This document shows, piece by piece, positions 14,764 through 25,947 of a stretch of 55,448 nucleotides of DNA (its first letter is position 1; the number at the start of each line of letters is the position of its first letter). This DNA is from a virus: the IMG/VR virus record IMGVR_UViG_3300032284_000540, positions 1 to 55,448 of that record; one strand, written 5' to 3'. A program made the translations under genes and the position numbers. The notes beneath the pieces are model-generated. The model was not told where the DNA came from. It searched no databases and saw only the letters and a list, made by a program, of their open reading frames with translations.

Positions 14764-14771
14764 TATTTATT
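14764..14771 (-). promoter_or_regulatory. Late promoter, AATAAATA, almost at gp25 start
   Basis: On the minus strand AATAAATA overlaps the stop codon of the spike gene and ends 9 bases before the gp25 ATG. The predicted transcription start is 3-4 bases from the ATG. Confidence 0.45.
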
Positions 14772-15762
14772 ATGGAGTAGACGGAACATGTGGCGGGTTC
14801 GGAGAAGAAGAAGTACTCGGCACGCCATTTGTGTAAGTTTTAATGCTATAGGAACCGGAGATGTACTTATACACGTATCCGGCACCATACGTATCCCAGG
14901 CGTTAATCGACTTAGCATACGTCTGTACGACATTTCCAGACATTCTCAACTCTCCGCCGGCAGGAGGATTGGCGCCAGTAGGATCTTGTTTGTCGGAACC
15001 GGATGCTCTAATTGCGACATATGTGTTACCTGAAATTGCAGCAGAGCCTTTTAGTCCATATATTCCGGCCTGGCCCTCTCCAGAAAACATTTTAGCGTCG
15101 CCTTTAGCATTAACGTAATAATTGCCTGTATCTGATAATACAGATACATCTCCTCCTTCTGATCTAACAAGAACGTCTTTAGCTGCTGCGAGTCTAACAT
15201 CAGATGCTAGTGCTCCTATTACTACGTCTCCAACATTAGCACTTATTATAGTACCATTCAATGATTGAAAAGTAGCTTTATTTTGGGCAAAAAAGTTCAT
15301 GTCATGATTTACCATAAGATTATAATTCTTGCCTACTGTCAGATTATAGTTTCCGCCTACCACGTGATTGACGTCTCCCTTGACCTCGAGATGAGCGTCT
15401 CCTCCTACGACTATGCGCGCTGCGCCGCCGATCTTGATGTCGCCGTTCTTCTCGATAGTTATTGTGGTGCTCTGCTTTACGGTCTTGCTCTCGTTCGCGC
15501 TGACTACCTCTACCTTACGACCATCTTCTGAGACTTCAGTATATGATCCGGACTTGTGAGCGATCCTGACTCTTTCGTTTCCCGGTGTGTCGTCAAGATG
15601 TATCTCGTGGCCCGCGCGCGTAACCTGTGAGTAGTTGTACGGGTATTGAGACGCGTATGTGGTGCCGGGAGTACGCGTATTAGCAGAAGACGGAGTCGAT
15701 AGAGTCTTAGTCTTACCCGTAAAGAGACCAGTTATAGTATCAAATATAGGAACATTTACCAT
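14770..15762 (-). CDS. Central spike beta-helix protein, gp5 C-terminal-like
   Basis: This 330-aa protein begins with a variable leader and then GHEIHLDDTPGNERVRIAHK (about residues 51-70), the sequence that in VgrG/gp5 proteins follows the OB domain. It continues with short repeats of the V-x-G-(D/N)-x-x-x-x-V kind (IVVGGDAHLEV, KGDVNHVVGGNYNLTVGKNY) that build the triple-stranded beta-helix needle. The C-terminal tail is Ser/Pro rich. In T4 this domain is the C-terminus of gp5; here it is a separate protein 2 bases downstream of the OB-domain gene. It should be the membrane-piercing needle under the hub. Confidence 0.8.
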   Translation of the reverse strand: MVNVPIFDTITGLFTGKTKTLSTPSSANTRTPGTTYASQYPYNYSQVTRAGHEIHLDDTPGNERVRIAHKSGSYTEVSEDGRKVEVVSANESKTVKQSTTITIEKNGDIKIGGAARIVVGGDAHLEVKGDVNHVVGGNYNLTVGKNYNLMVNHDMNFFAQNKATFQSLNGTIISANVGDVVIGALASDVRLAAAKDVLVRSEGGDVSVLSDTGNYYVNAKGDAKMFSGEGQAGIYGLKGSAAISGNTYVAIRASGSDKQDPTGANPPAGGELRMSGNVVQTYAKSINAWDTYGAGYVYKYISGSYSIKTYTNGVPSTSSSPNPPHVPSTP

Positions 15763-15764
15763 TA

Positions 15765-17489
15765 TTACTTTCCTCTCCTAGCAGCTCTGGCAGCTACCTG
15801 ATCGGCAATTGCATTTCTAGAATCTAAGGCAGCGAGCTGCTGAGTCTCTTCTTGAGCACCGATCTGCTTCATGATATTTTCGTTTTCTGCATTAGGGTCG
15901 TTCTCAGGAGGAGGCGGTATACCCAGAGCTTCACTCTCTGTGACGAGCGGAGGAGCTTCTGGAGCGGCAAGTTGAGCGTTAACCGCTTCCTGCTGCATGG
16001 ATACTTCGTTTTGATTTAGAGCAGCGTTAAGCTGGTCTTGCGACGCCGATCCTACTTGTGGAGTCGGAAGAGACGGAGGCGATGGAGCCGGTGTAGTCGC
16101 GGCTTCAGAGTCCGTAGTAGTAGATGGTACAGGAAGAGGAGGAGACTTTTGCTGAGAAGCTAGAGTACCAGCGCTTAACTTTAGCGAAGAAAGCATAGTC
16201 GAAAGAATTGTTTGAATTATATTTGGTGCCTGTATTAGACCTCCAAAATCGGAAATCAGCGAGTTAATATTGGATACTGAAGAAATTACACTCGTGAGAG
16301 AAGATAGACCCGGAACTATAGAAGGTCCTAGAGCGACTAGCTGATCGAGACTCTTTATACTAGAACCAAATAGAGCATTTATTCCGCCGAGCTGTATAGA
16401 ATTCATAAGAGAATTTAAACTACCACCGAGCCCTCCTCCACTCAATAGTCCGGCACCTAAAGATGAGATCGCAGAAGTCGCTGCTACGTCGCTGAGGAGC
16501 GACTGTGTTAGACCTATTCCACCCGGAACCGCCGCCATCGCATCGATGCCGCCAAGAGAACCAAAACCCGTCATAGAATTAATTGATGATAGCTGAGATA
16601 CCAGAGCCTGAGAAGAAGCGAAGTGGGGGCTATCTTGAGGAAAGCTCAGCACGGCCGGATTGAACGCGGGAGCTGACAGTGTGGCTAGTGGATTAGGTCC
16701 TCCGGCTGCGAAAGTTGACGTTATACTGTTTAGCGCGCCGTTCGTCGCAGTGAGAGCGCTCGGTGATAGAGATGCTGGATTTATTGCGTTAATCGCCGAA
16801 AGCACGCTGCCTATGCCGAACTGACTCATAGCAGTCGAGAGTACTCTAGTTATGCTCGACGTACCTATATCTGCTAAACCGGACACAGAGCTAAATGCAT
16901 CTATAGCTTGAATTTTACTGATTCCCGTAAGCGCTCCAGACAGAGCGCCCGACATGTTCGACGGATCGAGAGTTAGCAAAGTAGAAGTAAGGTTTGAAGG
17001 TATAGAAGAAAGAACACCGACGCCAGCCGACAGAGATGCAAACTTTAGACCAGCGGCCGCCAAAGCAGTTAAATTCTTTCCTCCAAGAGCAGAGTTTAGA
17101 TCTTGACCACGAGCGGCTCTGGCCATGTCGTTGTTCGTTGGATTTAAGACGTAAGAACCGTCCACGACTTGCCCCGGCACTGTACTGCCGGCAGATTGAA
17201 GAGATCCTTCTATGTACAAGATCGTCTTATCGTCGTCTGCGAACCTTCCTACGAGCACTGTTCCAGGGACAACTCCTACTGGAGAACTGCCCACGCCCGC
17301 CAGAGAAGCTCCGTGTGTTATAGGTATGATAGGAGCAGCCCACGGTAGATCAGCGTCCGGAATACGAGCTACGTCGTCATGAAGACCGAACACGCGAACT
17401 TGTACACGGCCCTGCTGCTTAGGATCATTTACATTGACGACTTTACCGTACCATCTGTTCTCGCCGGATCCGAGCGCTCTGTCAGTCAT
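15765..17489 (-). CDS. 5: Baseplate hub protein with gp5 OB-fold, no lysozyme domain
   Basis: The first ~100 residues form a gp5/VgrG-type OB-fold: NRWYGKVVNVNDPKQQGRVQ near residue 11, LPWAAPIIP near 49, and PGTVLVGRFADDDKTILYIEG near 74. Residues 120-440 are Ala/Ser/Leu/Gly-rich low-complexity sequence, then a Pro/Ser/Thr linker and an acidic Gln-rich tail. There is no T4-lysozyme domain, which in T4 gp5 sits between the OB and needle domains. Its ATG overlaps the gp27 stop by 4 bases (ATGA). It should bind gp27 and the separate needle protein. The function of the Ala/Leu-rich middle is unknown. Confidence 0.8.
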   Translation of the reverse strand: MTDRALGSGENRWYGKVVNVNDPKQQGRVQVRVFGLHDDVARIPDADLPWAAPIIPITHGASLAGVGSSPVGVVPGTVLVGRFADDDKTILYIEGSLQSAGSTVPGQVVDGSYVLNPTNNDMARAARGQDLNSALGGKNLTALAAAGLKFASLSAGVGVLSSIPSNLTSTLLTLDPSNMSGALSGALTGISKIQAIDAFSSVSGLADIGTSSITRVLSTAMSQFGIGSVLSAINAINPASLSPSALTATNGALNSITSTFAAGGPNPLATLSAPAFNPAVLSFPQDSPHFASSQALVSQLSSINSMTGFGSLGGIDAMAAVPGGIGLTQSLLSDVAATSAISSLGAGLLSGGGLGGSLNSLMNSIQLGGINALFGSSIKSLDQLVALGPSIVPGLSSLTSVISSVSNINSLISDFGGLIQAPNIIQTILSTMLSSLKLSAGTLASQQKSPPLPVPSTTTDSEAATTPAPSPPSLPTPQVGSASQDQLNAALNQNEVSMQQEAVNAQLAAPEAPPLVTESEALGIPPPPENDPNAENENIMKQIGAQEETQQLAALDSRNAIADQVAARAARRGK

Positions 17490-22490: not shown

Positions 22491-23201
22491 ATGACACTAC
22501 CTAAGATACAACACCCTACGTTTCGCCTAGAAGTTCCTTCTACTAAGAAGACTCTTTCTTTTAGACCCTTCTTAGTCAAAGAAGAGAAGATCCTTCTCAT
22601 GGCAAAAGCCAGTCAGGATCCGACCGACATCTTAACAGCTATCAAGCAGATCGTAAACAACTGCTGCATGGTAGATAACATCGACGTGAATAAGTTCACG
22701 ATATTCGACCTAGAGTACTTGTTCCTTAAGATCAGAGCTAACTCTGTCAGTAACATAGTAGAACTAAGCTTCCGAGATAACGAAGACGATAAGAGCTATG
22801 ACTTTAAAGTCGACTTGAATCAAGTCAAGATGAAGTATCCAGATGATATCGATAACAAGATAGCCATCGATGACAAGACCGGGATCATCATGAAATACCC
22901 GTCGGCCGAGATGTACGACGATAAGAACTTTCTTCAGTTAAAGGAAGACGCGCTATTCGAGCTTATCGTCAGGTGTATAGACAAGATCTATCAGGGCGAC
23001 AAGCTATTCGATCCTAAGACGCATAGCAAGGAAGAACTAGAGGCGTTCTTGGACAGCGTAGATACTAAGACTTTCGAGAAGATTCAAAACTTCCTCAATA
23101 ATGTTCCTAACATGGAGTACGTTATCTCATATAAGAACTCTATGGGAAACGACAGGAGAATCGAGCTTAAGTCTCTAACTGATTTTTTTACGTTGCGCTG
23201 A
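22491..23201 (+). CDS. 26: Baseplate hub assembly protein gp26 (T4_baseplate family), zero-frame product
   Basis: This 236-aa protein (T4 gp26 208) opens LPKIQHPTFRLEVPSTKKTLSFRPF after two residues, then VKEEKILLMAKAS and ILTAIKQIVNNCC, the usual gp26 start. A clear GAGG ribosome site precedes the ATG. The gene ends TTT-TTT-ACG-TTG-CGC-TGA. The -1 frame is open across this stop and encodes a gp51-like tail (see 22491-23371). By family knowledge gp26 and gp51 are assembly factors of the hub and not virion components. Confidence 0.88.
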   Translation: MTLPKIQHPTFRLEVPSTKKTLSFRPFLVKEEKILLMAKASQDPTDILTAIKQIVNNCCMVDNIDVNKFTIFDLEYLFLKIRANSVSNIVELSFRDNEDDKSYDFKVDLNQVKMKYPDDIDNKIAIDDKTGIIMKYPSAEMYDDKNFLQLKEDALFELIVRCIDKIYQGDKLFDPKTHSKEELEAFLDSVDTKTFEKIQNFLNNVPNMEYVISYKNSMGNDRRIELKSLTDFFTLR

Positions 23202-23371
23202 GTCATAACACGCTAGAGAACTTTTATAAAGTTACTTTCGCGCTAGCTCAGCACCATAAATACTCGTTAAGTGACTTAGATAATCTTATGCCGTTCGAGC
23301 TTGACATATATGTCGATATGCTTCAGAAGTTTAATATAGAACAAGAAAAACGTAACAGAAGTACGGGTTAA
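22491..23371 (+). CDS. gp26-gp51-like fusion made by -1 ribosomal frameshift
   Basis: Seven T residues at 23183-23189 form a slippery heptamer T-TTT-TTT in the gp26 frame. A -1 slip gives TAC at 23189 and 60 more codons, to TAA at 23369-23371, for a product of about 293 aa. The extension reads YVALSHNTLENFYKVTFALA, then QHHKYSLSDLDNLMPFELDI, which has the look of the short gp51 of marine T4-like phages. The -1 frame has a TGA at 23180, just before the slip, and no ATG or GTG before the core, so independent initiation is unlikely. A possible stem GCTGAG/CTCAGC (23197-23202 with 23247-23252) starts 7 bases after the slip site and encloses a smaller hairpin. The stop overlaps the ATG of the next gene (TAATG). 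Confidence 0.75.
23183..23189 (+). promoter_or_regulatory. -1 frameshift slippery site T TTT TTT
   Basis: The heptamer is a run of seven T in frame X-XXY-YYZ relative to gp26. It is followed after a 7-base spacer by a potential 6-bp stem with an internal AACTTT/AAAGTT hairpin at 23219-23233. The spacing matches known stimulatory structures. Confidence 0.7.
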
Positions 23372-25947
23372 TGGCCGAACCAGTTCCAGAAGTCAAAGAC
23401 GTAAAACAAGATATTAAAAAGCCCGAAGATGGCATGAAAGCCATGGCTCGCGAAGCTGGCAATGGAACTACCGGCGGCGTGTCCAAGACTATGGACACAA
23501 TTATGAAGGCAGTAAAGTCTAACTCGACATCCCCGCGTAAGTACGAAGCTAAGACTAAGCCGGCTGGTCTACCAGAAACTGCTGCTCAAGAGATCAAAGA
23601 TACTGGGGCCGAAGTCAGAAGATTGTCCGCTTCTGTCGGGATGATCAACTACAATGTCAATAATATGTTGAACGTGGTTGAAAAGAATACTGGTCTCATG
23701 AACGTTATGATGACTCAGCTCGGCTCCATGGACTATAAGATAGATTCATTAGATAAAAAAATATCAAGTTCTGGAAGTTCTGGAAGTTCTGGAAGTGGAG
23801 GCTTAATAAGTGGCATAGTAGATGGATTAATTTCTGGATTAACTACTGAAGGGTTGCTAGGCACAGCTAGTACAGCGTTAGGAGCTGCTGGTGAATTAGC
23901 TGCTGGTACATTATTACCTATTGCTATGATAGCAGTAGGAGGGTATGGTGCTCATGAACTGTCAGAACAGGCTAAAGAAGAATTTGGCCAAGATTTTAGA
24001 GAAAAGTTACAGCCGATTCATAAAAGAGCGATGAAAGAAGGACTAACAGATATCGCTCCTCAGAACGCTGAACTACAAGAATTATTAGATAGACCGGATA
24101 AAGCACAGTTTGCAAAAGAACTCTTATCAGGAGAAATAGGATCTCCTAAAGATGTACAGAGATATGGAAAAGAAAATTTAGAAAAAATTGCTAGGGGAGA
24201 AGATTTAACTGTTAAACAGATGAGAACAGGCGGGCCCCAAGAATCTGCTGCAGTAACAAAAGCAAGAACTGAGATAGATGCGGCGCGAGTCAGGCCTCCA
24301 AAACCGACATCAGACGCTAGTAAAATAACTGGTGGCGGCGTAGGAGGAGCTGTAGGAGGAACGGATGACGACGTCTCTGGTATTAAACCATCTAAGAACG
24401 TAGACGGAAACACGAAACAAAAATTTGATACTATAGCAAAACAGGCTGCGGGTTTCGGCGATTCTATGGGAGGAATTATAACAGCGGCTCAATGGGCTCT
24501 AGAATCTGGATGGGGTAATAGTACTATAGCCAACACGTTAAATAACGAATTTGGTCAGACTGCTACTGCTTCTGAACCGGGAAAAACTTTTCCTGGAAAC
24601 TCTCTTAAATTCAAAGCTTATCAGACTAGAGAAGACGGTCGTAAAGAACACGTACAGCATTGGGCTTCAAAATATGCGAACGCTAAGACTCCGGCTGAAG
24701 CTATACAGATGCTTATAAAAGCTGGTTATAATTCAGAACCTGGCTATCTAAAAAATCTAAGTTCTGTTATTGCTAGTATGGGAATAGATGTCAATTCTCC
24801 GGTAGAAAAAGGAGCTTCTCAAGCAGGAACTGCGGCGGCGACTCCTACAGCCGGCCCAGACACTGCTACTCCGGAAACAACACCGTTAAAAGCTCCTCCA
24901 GCTCCCATGGGAGCTACGTCTGGAGCTATTCCTATACCAGCTGCAGCTGCAGCAACTCAAGCAGCGGCCGGTCCGGCTACTACTGCTCCGGATCCCGGTA
25001 CGTACGGTGTATCATCGCCTCCGGCCGGAGTAGCAAATCAGGCTGCTCTTAGTTCTCTTCCTAACGTGAAGATAGCTTCTGGAGTAAACGTAGATAAGCT
25101 AGACCCAGAATTTGCTAATAAGCTAGCAGCTGCTATACAAGAGTACGGACAACCAGTCGCTATAAACTCAGGATTTAGAGACGATAAGTATCAAGCAGAA
25201 TTGTGGGTAAGAAGTCATATACTAAGAGATCCTACAGTCATAGGAGCTGCTCCGCCGAAACAAGCTCAGAAAGTTACGATAAACGGCCGTACGTATGACG
25301 TGCCCGGCGGAGGCGGTGGTTCACTGCACAGTCAAGGAAAGGCCATCGATCTAAGTCCAGCACAAGCTCAAGACATGTCTAGGAAGGGAATCTTAAGAAA
25401 ACACGGTTTAGCTGCTCCGTTTAGCTGGGATCCTGTACATGTTCAGCTGGCCGGCGCTGGTGGAGGAGGCGACGCAGGAGCTCAACCGACAGGAGCGCCT
25501 GCTGCAGGAAGTATGAATATCTCCGGAGCCGGTGGAGTAGCGCCGGGAACTAGCTCGATATCGAACTTAGCCGCTAGTCCCAGAGGCTTCATGGGAGCTC
25601 CCGGGAGCCCCGCCATGATGGCTCAGGGCCCGTTGGGTATGGGTCTACCCAATCCTATAGGAGGTCTCAGGAGTCAGCTGGGAGCCGGTCCGTTAGGGCC
25701 GTTGATGAGCATGGTAGGATCCATGGGTAACATCGGCAATCTCATAGGTGGGCTAACGAGAGCCATCGGCGGTTCTGCTCAACAGAACAGAGGATACAGA
25801 GACGCGCCGAACCCGAACTTCGTTCCAGACAACTACTCGAGAAATCAAGTACCTACTGCAATGCCTAGCAGCAACCTTCTCAGAGAGCTGTTCGATCTTA
25901 ACGTCGGAGCTGGAATGAACCCTGCCGGATACGCGTTCGGTAGATAA
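23371..25947 (+). CDS. Hub/tape-measure-position protein with GH73-like and M15 peptidase domains
   Basis: This 858-aa protein has an N-terminal helical part (residues 1-130) with a coiled-coil-like run ending DYKIDSLDKKI, an SSG repeat, and a hydrophobic Gly/Ala helix pair (about 145-190). A glucosaminidase-like (FlgJ/GH73) domain follows at about 348-473, with likely catalytic E378 in AAQWALESGWGNS and the partner motif NEFGQ. A Pro/Ala linker leads to an M15 D-Ala peptidase-like domain at about 565-695, with SLHSQGKAIDL giving H653 and D660, and DPVHV giving H690 as zinc ligands. The tail is Gly/Pro rich. It lies right after the gp26/51 frameshift gene, where hub or tape-measure genes sit. 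It likely degrades peptidoglycan during injection. Bases about 23,760-24,800 are visibly more AT-rich than the ends, suggesting mosaic origin. Confidence 0.75.
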   Translation: MAEPVPEVKDVKQDIKKPEDGMKAMAREAGNGTTGGVSKTMDTIMKAVKSNSTSPRKYEAKTKPAGLPETAAQEIKDTGAEVRRLSASVGMINYNVNNMLNVVEKNTGLMNVMMTQLGSMDYKIDSLDKKISSSGSSGSSGSGGLISGIVDGLISGLTTEGLLGTASTALGAAGELAAGTLLPIAMIAVGGYGAHELSEQAKEEFGQDFREKLQPIHKRAMKEGLTDIAPQNAELQELLDRPDKAQFAKELLSGEIGSPKDVQRYGKENLEKIARGEDLTVKQMRTGGPQESAAVTKARTEIDAARVRPPKPTSDASKITGGGVGGAVGGTDDDVSGIKPSKNVDGNTKQKFDTIAKQAAGFGDSMGGIITAAQWALESGWGNSTIANTLNNEFGQTATASEPGKTFPGNSLKFKAYQTREDGRKEHVQHWASKYANAKTPAEAIQMLIKAGYNSEPGYLKNLSSVIASMGIDVNSPVEKGASQAGTAAATPTAGPDTATPETTPLKAPPAPMGATSGAIPIPAAAAATQAAAGPATTAPDPGTYGVSSPPAGVANQAALSSLPNVKIASGVNVDKLDPEFANKLAAAIQEYGQPVAINSGFRDDKYQAELWVRSHILRDPTVIGAAPPKQAQKVTINGRTYDVPGGGGGSLHSQGKAIDLSPAQAQDMSRKGILRKHGLAAPFSWDPVHVQLAGAGGGGDAGAQPTGAPAAGSMNISGAGGVAPGTSSISNLAASPRGFMGAPGSPAMMAQGPLGMGLPNPIGGLRSQLGAGPLGPLMSMVGSMGNIGNLIGGLTRAIGGSAQQNRGYRDAPNPNFVPDNYSRNQVPTAMPSSNLLRELFDLNVGAGMNPAGYAFGR
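23767..23793 (+). repeat. Three tandem 9-base repeats (SSG linker)
   Basis: Three perfect copies of AGTTCTGGA encode a Ser-Ser-Gly linker in the 858-aa hub protein, between its coiled-coil-like part and the hydrophobic segment. Copy number could vary by slippage. Confidence 0.8.

Follow-up and report, generated by a model that had tools for sequence, protein, structure and literature searches.

A candidate programmed -1 frameshift cassette joining gp26 to a gp51 domain in T4-like phages

The gene 26 locus and its two reading frames

The window analyzed here is the whole of IMG/VR record IMGVR_UViG_3300032284_000540, 55,448 nt of DNA from a T4-like phage. We identified a gene for gp26 (Table 1), with matches to PF12322 (E 6.5e-55) and phrog_150 (E 7.2e-58). 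It is the single gp26-like place in this record, which may be a fragment. The 3' end of the gene reads GAT TTT TTT ACG TTG CGC TGA. A T-run heptamer near this stop codon had been noted in the original prediction; its coordinates are right, and in the gp26 register it reads T TTT TTT. Among the 48 genes of the window, this one alone has an in-frame X XXY YYZ heptamer with a -1 frame that is open for at least 40 codons past the stop.

Table 1. Features of the gp26/gp51 locus (positions in the window)
Feature	Position	Strand	Basis or note
gp26 ORF, short chaperone form (TAC-N), 236 aa	22491..23201	+	PF12322, phrog_150
TGA in the -1 frame, immediately 5' of the slip heptamer	23180..23182	+	sequence
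Slippery heptamer T TTT TTT (candidate)	23183..23189	+	in gp26 register
-1 open stretch encoding the gp51 domain (TAC-C)	23183..23371	+	phrog_634, conservation, codon-position bias, alignment
Stem 5' arm, 7-nt spacer from slip	23197..23204	+	covarying; MFE -18.9 kcal/mol for the window's own fold
0-frame TGA, ends short form	23199..23201	+	sequence
Stem 3' arm	23245..23252	+	covariation; second synonymous-constraint peak
858-aa gene with glucosaminidase and VanY-like domains	23371..25947	+	PF01832 E 2.9e-14, PF02557 E 9.5e-6

Also in agreement with the sequence are the earlier claims that the -1 frame has a stop at 23180 and is then open to a TAATG overlap, with no early ATG or GTG. The stretch has 62 sense codons (23183-23368), and the TAA that follows (23369-23371) overlaps the ATG (23371) of the downstream 858-aa ORF. 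The first ATG in this frame is codon 36 of the stretch, within the conserved domain, and there is no earlier GTG or TTG. The TGA directly before the heptamer closes this frame to ribosomes coming from farther upstream. In many relatives it opens at the same position as in the window. A shift at the heptamer would join 233 gp26 codons to 60 codons starting at 23189, for a predicted fusion of 293 amino acids.

The extension matches phrog_634 (annotated as "baseplate hub assembly catalyst", i.e., gp51) with E 1.2e-22. Pairwise differences at codon positions 1, 2 and 3 are 27/15/57% in the extension and 25/13/62% in gp26 itself. This codon-position bias is in line with the well-formed protein that had been proposed. 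Conserved residues in the alignment include the FF of the junction and then P37, E39 and Y43 in the domain. The gp26 and extension halves were folded separately. The AlphaFold2 model of gp26 has a pLDDT of 87.4, and three helices were predicted with low confidence for the extension alone. Judged from sequence, gene 26 and the overlapping -1 frame very probably form a programmed -1 frameshift cassette for production of a short and a long tail assembly chaperone.

Conservation of the slip site and the downstream hairpin

The slip site is conserved in relatives, an outcome on which the original prediction had been staked. The gene end is complete in 78 IMG/VR relatives recovered by a first scan, all of which have GAT TTT TTT at the same codon (78/78) and a -1 extension of the form FFYVxLSHNTLENYY. 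The set was enlarged to 328 complete gp26 ends by four further scans (cyanophage, vibriophage and Sinorhizobium phage gp26 as queries) and 13 GenBank records; a KVP40-like gp26 used as the scan query returned two loci only. We identified T TTT TT(C/T/A) at the gp26 end in 326 of the 328 loci (T TTT TTC in 231, T TTT TTT in 94, T TTT TTA in one, and none in two). The -1 continuation is 47-71 codons long in all 321 relatives with a complete extension. The gp26 family reached from the window comprises 655 records, mostly of cyanophages, with one place each. The members examined, among them KVP40-like VH7D, Aeromonas 65, Delftia PhiW-14 and Sinorhizobium phiM19, have T TTT TT(C/T) and a -1 extension, and the slip of Rhizobium phage RHph_I1_18 is T TTT TTA.

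Dereplication at 90% identity left 197 sequences. The first slip codon is TTT in all of them (197/197) and is the sole fully fixed codon column of the gene (next best 0.88, median 0.55). The residue encoded just 5' of the slip is D, N, S, A, T or H, yet the third base of its codon is T throughout. In 155 clusters formed at 80%, background usage is 64% TTT and 61% T-ending codons, and of 140 other Phe-Phe pairs encoded by these genes only 5 have the form T TTT TTN. Multiplied probabilities (10^-33 and 10^-36) are indicative only, because the sequences share ancestry. The pattern of fixed and free positions, in which the Z base alone is free, is that of a slip heptamer by the X XXY YYZ rule, as read from these alignments. 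In the window clade, synonymous constraint peaks at codons -1 to +3, which is the slip.

These comparisons refute the explanation that one gene was split by sequencing error or decay. An in-frame fusion of gp26 and gp51 in one ORF does occur, without a slip site, in IMGVR_UViG_3300049043_000112 (positions 1501-2394; TSFWLGMAHVDL), and this contig is either a natural fusion or an assembly error. However, 326 loci drawn from many assemblies and isolates share the split, their slip codons do not vary and the -1 frame is conserved, so that an artefactual or decayed gene has almost no probability.

The original prediction included a 6-bp stem 7 nt past the slip. That stem is borne out: its pairs covary, and the RNA folds more stably than controls with shuffled synonymous codons. 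The core is GCTGAG (23197-23202) paired with CTCAGC (23247-23252), lengthened to 7 bp in the window and to 8 bp in relatives. For the folding null, synonymous codons were shuffled so as to keep the protein and codon usage of each extension, and 65 nt beginning 4 nt past the slip were folded. The mean z in the window clade is -3.41, with 78% of values below -2, and the mean z in other relatives is -2.0. For two stretches farther downstream, the window clade has mean z values of 0.12 and 0.14, and other relatives have -0.3 and -0.6.

For the window clade, in which the stem encloses a loop of 40 nt, RNAalifold on its own proposed no consensus stem. The stem was tested instead by counts for the named structure and by synonymous shuffles. 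Of the cells for the eight pairs of 23197-23204 with 23245-23252, 88.8% are paired, compared with 14-36% when the pairing is slid. Double changes number 13 (5.2 in shuffles), and three of the eight pairs vary solely by breaking. A second peak of synonymous constraint in this clade, at codons +21 to +25, contains the 3' arm.

Cyanophage-type relatives have a different, shorter-looped hairpin that starts about 5 nt past the slip. In 57 such sequences, chosen by an extension residue and not by pairing, 93.3% of cells are paired and there are 24 double changes, compared with 6.7 in shuffles. Pair 21-35 is seen as U-A, G-C and A-U, and RNAalifold recovers this stem unaided. No Rfam family was identified for the downstream element, and no conserved Shine-Dalgarno-like stimulator was seen by eye upstream. 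By analogy with lambda-type chaperones, the hairpin probably stimulates -1 shifting.

The stem also bears on whether a mixed product could arise by transcriptional slippage, for which the seven consecutive Ts of the window clade would be suitable. The architecture is unchanged in the 231 of 326 loci whose run is only six Ts before a C, and in the one locus with T TTT TTA. Across loci the heptamer stays in the X XXY YYZ register and varies at the Z base alone, and a covarying RNA stem a few nt downstream is expected of ribosomal frameshifting. Thus, we regard slippage of the polymerase as very unlikely.

Equally improbable is that gp51 is a separate small protein, whose translation would begin near the gp26 stop, through reinitiation or coupling, at a start codon inside the region. 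In GenBank records of cyanophages and pelagiphages, gp51 is either annotated as a separate ORF with an internal start, as in S-PM2 and P-SSM4, or left unannotated (further such records are S-RSM4, Mosig, ACG-2014j and S-WAM2). In favor of a gp51 with its own start, many cyanophages have an ATG five codons past the slip, just beyond the gp26 stop. However, where present, this ATG sits in a hairpin arm and after conserved residues. Most of the window's clade lacks a start ahead of the FFYxxLxHNxLENYY block, and the first ATG in the window is at domain residue 36. Further, the slip codons are fixed, FF and the next residues are conserved in the -1 frame, and the homologous tail of T4 is covalently joined to a gp26-like domain.

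Besides the contig with the in-frame fusion, a few relatives depart from the standard site. Vibrio phages D532 and D506 keep a gp51-like -1 extension, with CTTTTC in place of T TTT TTN. They also carry TAATG, as would suit a separate start. The -1 extension of Ackermannviridae (L336, L337) lies past G ATT TTC, with no standard heptamer. Both groups may use other slip sites or may have switched to coupled starts.

Proposed chaperone products and the gp51 of T4

Frameshifting at this locus would yield two proteins. Most ribosomes would halt at the gp26 TGA (23199) and release gp26 as the short tail assembly chaperone. A minority would pause at the stem-loop (23197-23252), re-pair one base back on T TTT TTT and run to the TAA at the end of the -1 stretch, producing the gp26-gp51 fusion as the long chaperone. 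The fusion would be the counterpart of the long chaperone that T4 makes from a separate gene 51. By analogy to lambda gpG/gpGT, coating of the tape measure protein would fall to the gp26 part, and tail tube or hub subunits would be brought in by the gp51 part. On the same analogy, ribosomes probably shift here and the products probably act on the tape measure protein.

The lambda system (Xu, Hendrix and Duda 2004; reviewed in PMC5009743) likewise makes a short protein and a long protein extended in the -1 frame, with a slip heptamer close to where the first gene ends and a second frame that lacks its own start. The cassette described here differs in its protein family (PF12322/phrog_634), in its T TTT TTT slip and in its conserved downstream hairpin, and the tape-measure identity of the next gene is putative.

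The role of the products was also considered in light of structure. The gp26 model resembles, in BFVD, gp26 of T4-like phages and other phage proteins. A Foldseek search of the PDB with this model found no solved chaperone and no match better than E 0.2, and a sequence search of the PDB identified no solved relative. With no solved chaperone among its PDB matches, gp26 is called a chaperone on the strength of the published assignment. Pfam and PHROGs carry older T4 names, by which the fusion might instead be a factor for baseplate hub assembly. The lack of a fold match to solved chaperones fits this function, as does the lack of a tape-measure match next door in the window. On the other hand, short and long products made by -1 frameshift are a hallmark of tail chaperones, a tape-measure-like gene follows the cassette in Rhizobium phage RHph_I1_18, and a 2022 study, by its title as cited in PMC10885494, assigned the T4-like chaperones. 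A hub assembly factor is thus unlikely, and we favor tail assembly chaperones.

T4 itself has separate proteins with the same domains. T4 gp51 (249 aa) has PF12322 over residues 1-201 and a phrog_634 tail, and T4 gp26 has PF12322 alone. The architecture of T4 gp51, a gp26-like domain plus a gp51 tail, is that of the fusion predicted here, and the families are the same. T4 and 44RR have two separate, divergent genes, whereas the window phage has one gene and a putative frameshift. T4 gene 26 ends AAA GAG TTC TTT GAG, without a slip heptamer. We identified T4-type full-length gp51 in about 1,330 phage records. In the 55-kb window record, possibly a fragment, no second gp26-like gene ending in a gp51 domain, as required for expression of the T4 type, was identified. 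On comparative evidence, the suggestion that gp26/gp51 of T4-like phages are a frameshift pair is strongly supported for the lineage of the window and for marine/cyanobacterial, KVP40-like, Aeromonas 65-like and Sinorhizobium/Rhizobium relatives. It does not apply to T4 itself (Tevenvirinae and allies), given the separate full-length gp51.

The gp51 of cyanophages and marine vibriophages has been described as lacking the first ~200 residues of other T4-like gp51 (Sullivan et al., 2010, PMC3037559). This "short gp51" is the same domain, treated there as a reduced separate protein, and the word "frameshift" is absent from the text of that paper. Frameshifting would supply the missing ~200 residues from gp26, and so explain the "truncated" gp51 of marine T4-like phages. 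This would account for the length of gp51 in those phages, about 80% less than in T4 (PMC3037559).

The original prediction took such frameshifting to be undescribed for T4 relatives, which is not the case according to the cited portions of the literature. By its title, Vladimirov, Gautam and Davidson (2022, Virology 566:9; cited in PMC10885494) identified the chaperone genes of T4-like phages and suggested a mechanism other than frameshift. The passage on that study in PMC10885494 states that some T4-like phages have one short and one fused long gene, with no frameshifting. A passage of PMC12846349, citing the same study, treats poly-T slip sequences as known in TAC-N genes of T4-like phages. 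From these passages, the chaperone identity has already been published, and very likely so has frameshifting in part of the T4-like group. PMC12846349 also reports that chaperone genes of Vandenendeviridae and Andersonviridae have a -1 frameshift at GTTTTT. These likewise have a poly-T slip near the gene end and a -1 extension, but they are other phage families with another slip motif, and no mention of a hairpin was found in the portion of PMC12846349 consulted. No description of conserved hairpins or of a link to "short gp51" was found in the literature searched, which covers Vladimirov et al. (2022) through the papers that cite it.

A broader interpretation is possible, although we consider it somewhat doubtful. 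The -1 frameshift and covarying hairpin may be widespread, and perhaps ancestral, in the T4 superfamily, and the hairpin may be undescribed. The full-length gp51 of T4 would then have arisen through duplication followed by in-frame joining, and the apparent truncation of gp51 in cyanophages and marine vibriophages would be an annotation artefact. The comparison with T4 suggests that frameshift and gene duplication are interchangeable routes to a short and a long chaperone. The proposed cassette provides a coherent account of a gene pair that is annotated inconsistently, or omitted, in many marine T4-like phage genomes. The corresponding change in annotation would be to record gp51 of such phages as a ribosomal-slippage product of gene 26.

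Neighboring genes

The 858-aa gene that follows the cassette in the window has matches to lytic domains only, and no tape-measure match was identified. Elsewhere in the window, phrog_430 (gp5-like hub/tail lysozyme) is matched by two consecutive ORFs on the minus strand (14770-15762 and 15765-17489). One ORF matches the N-terminal part and the other a later part, with the middle region missing. Glucosaminidase and VanY-like domains are carried by the 858-aa ORF, and a relocation of the lytic function is possible.
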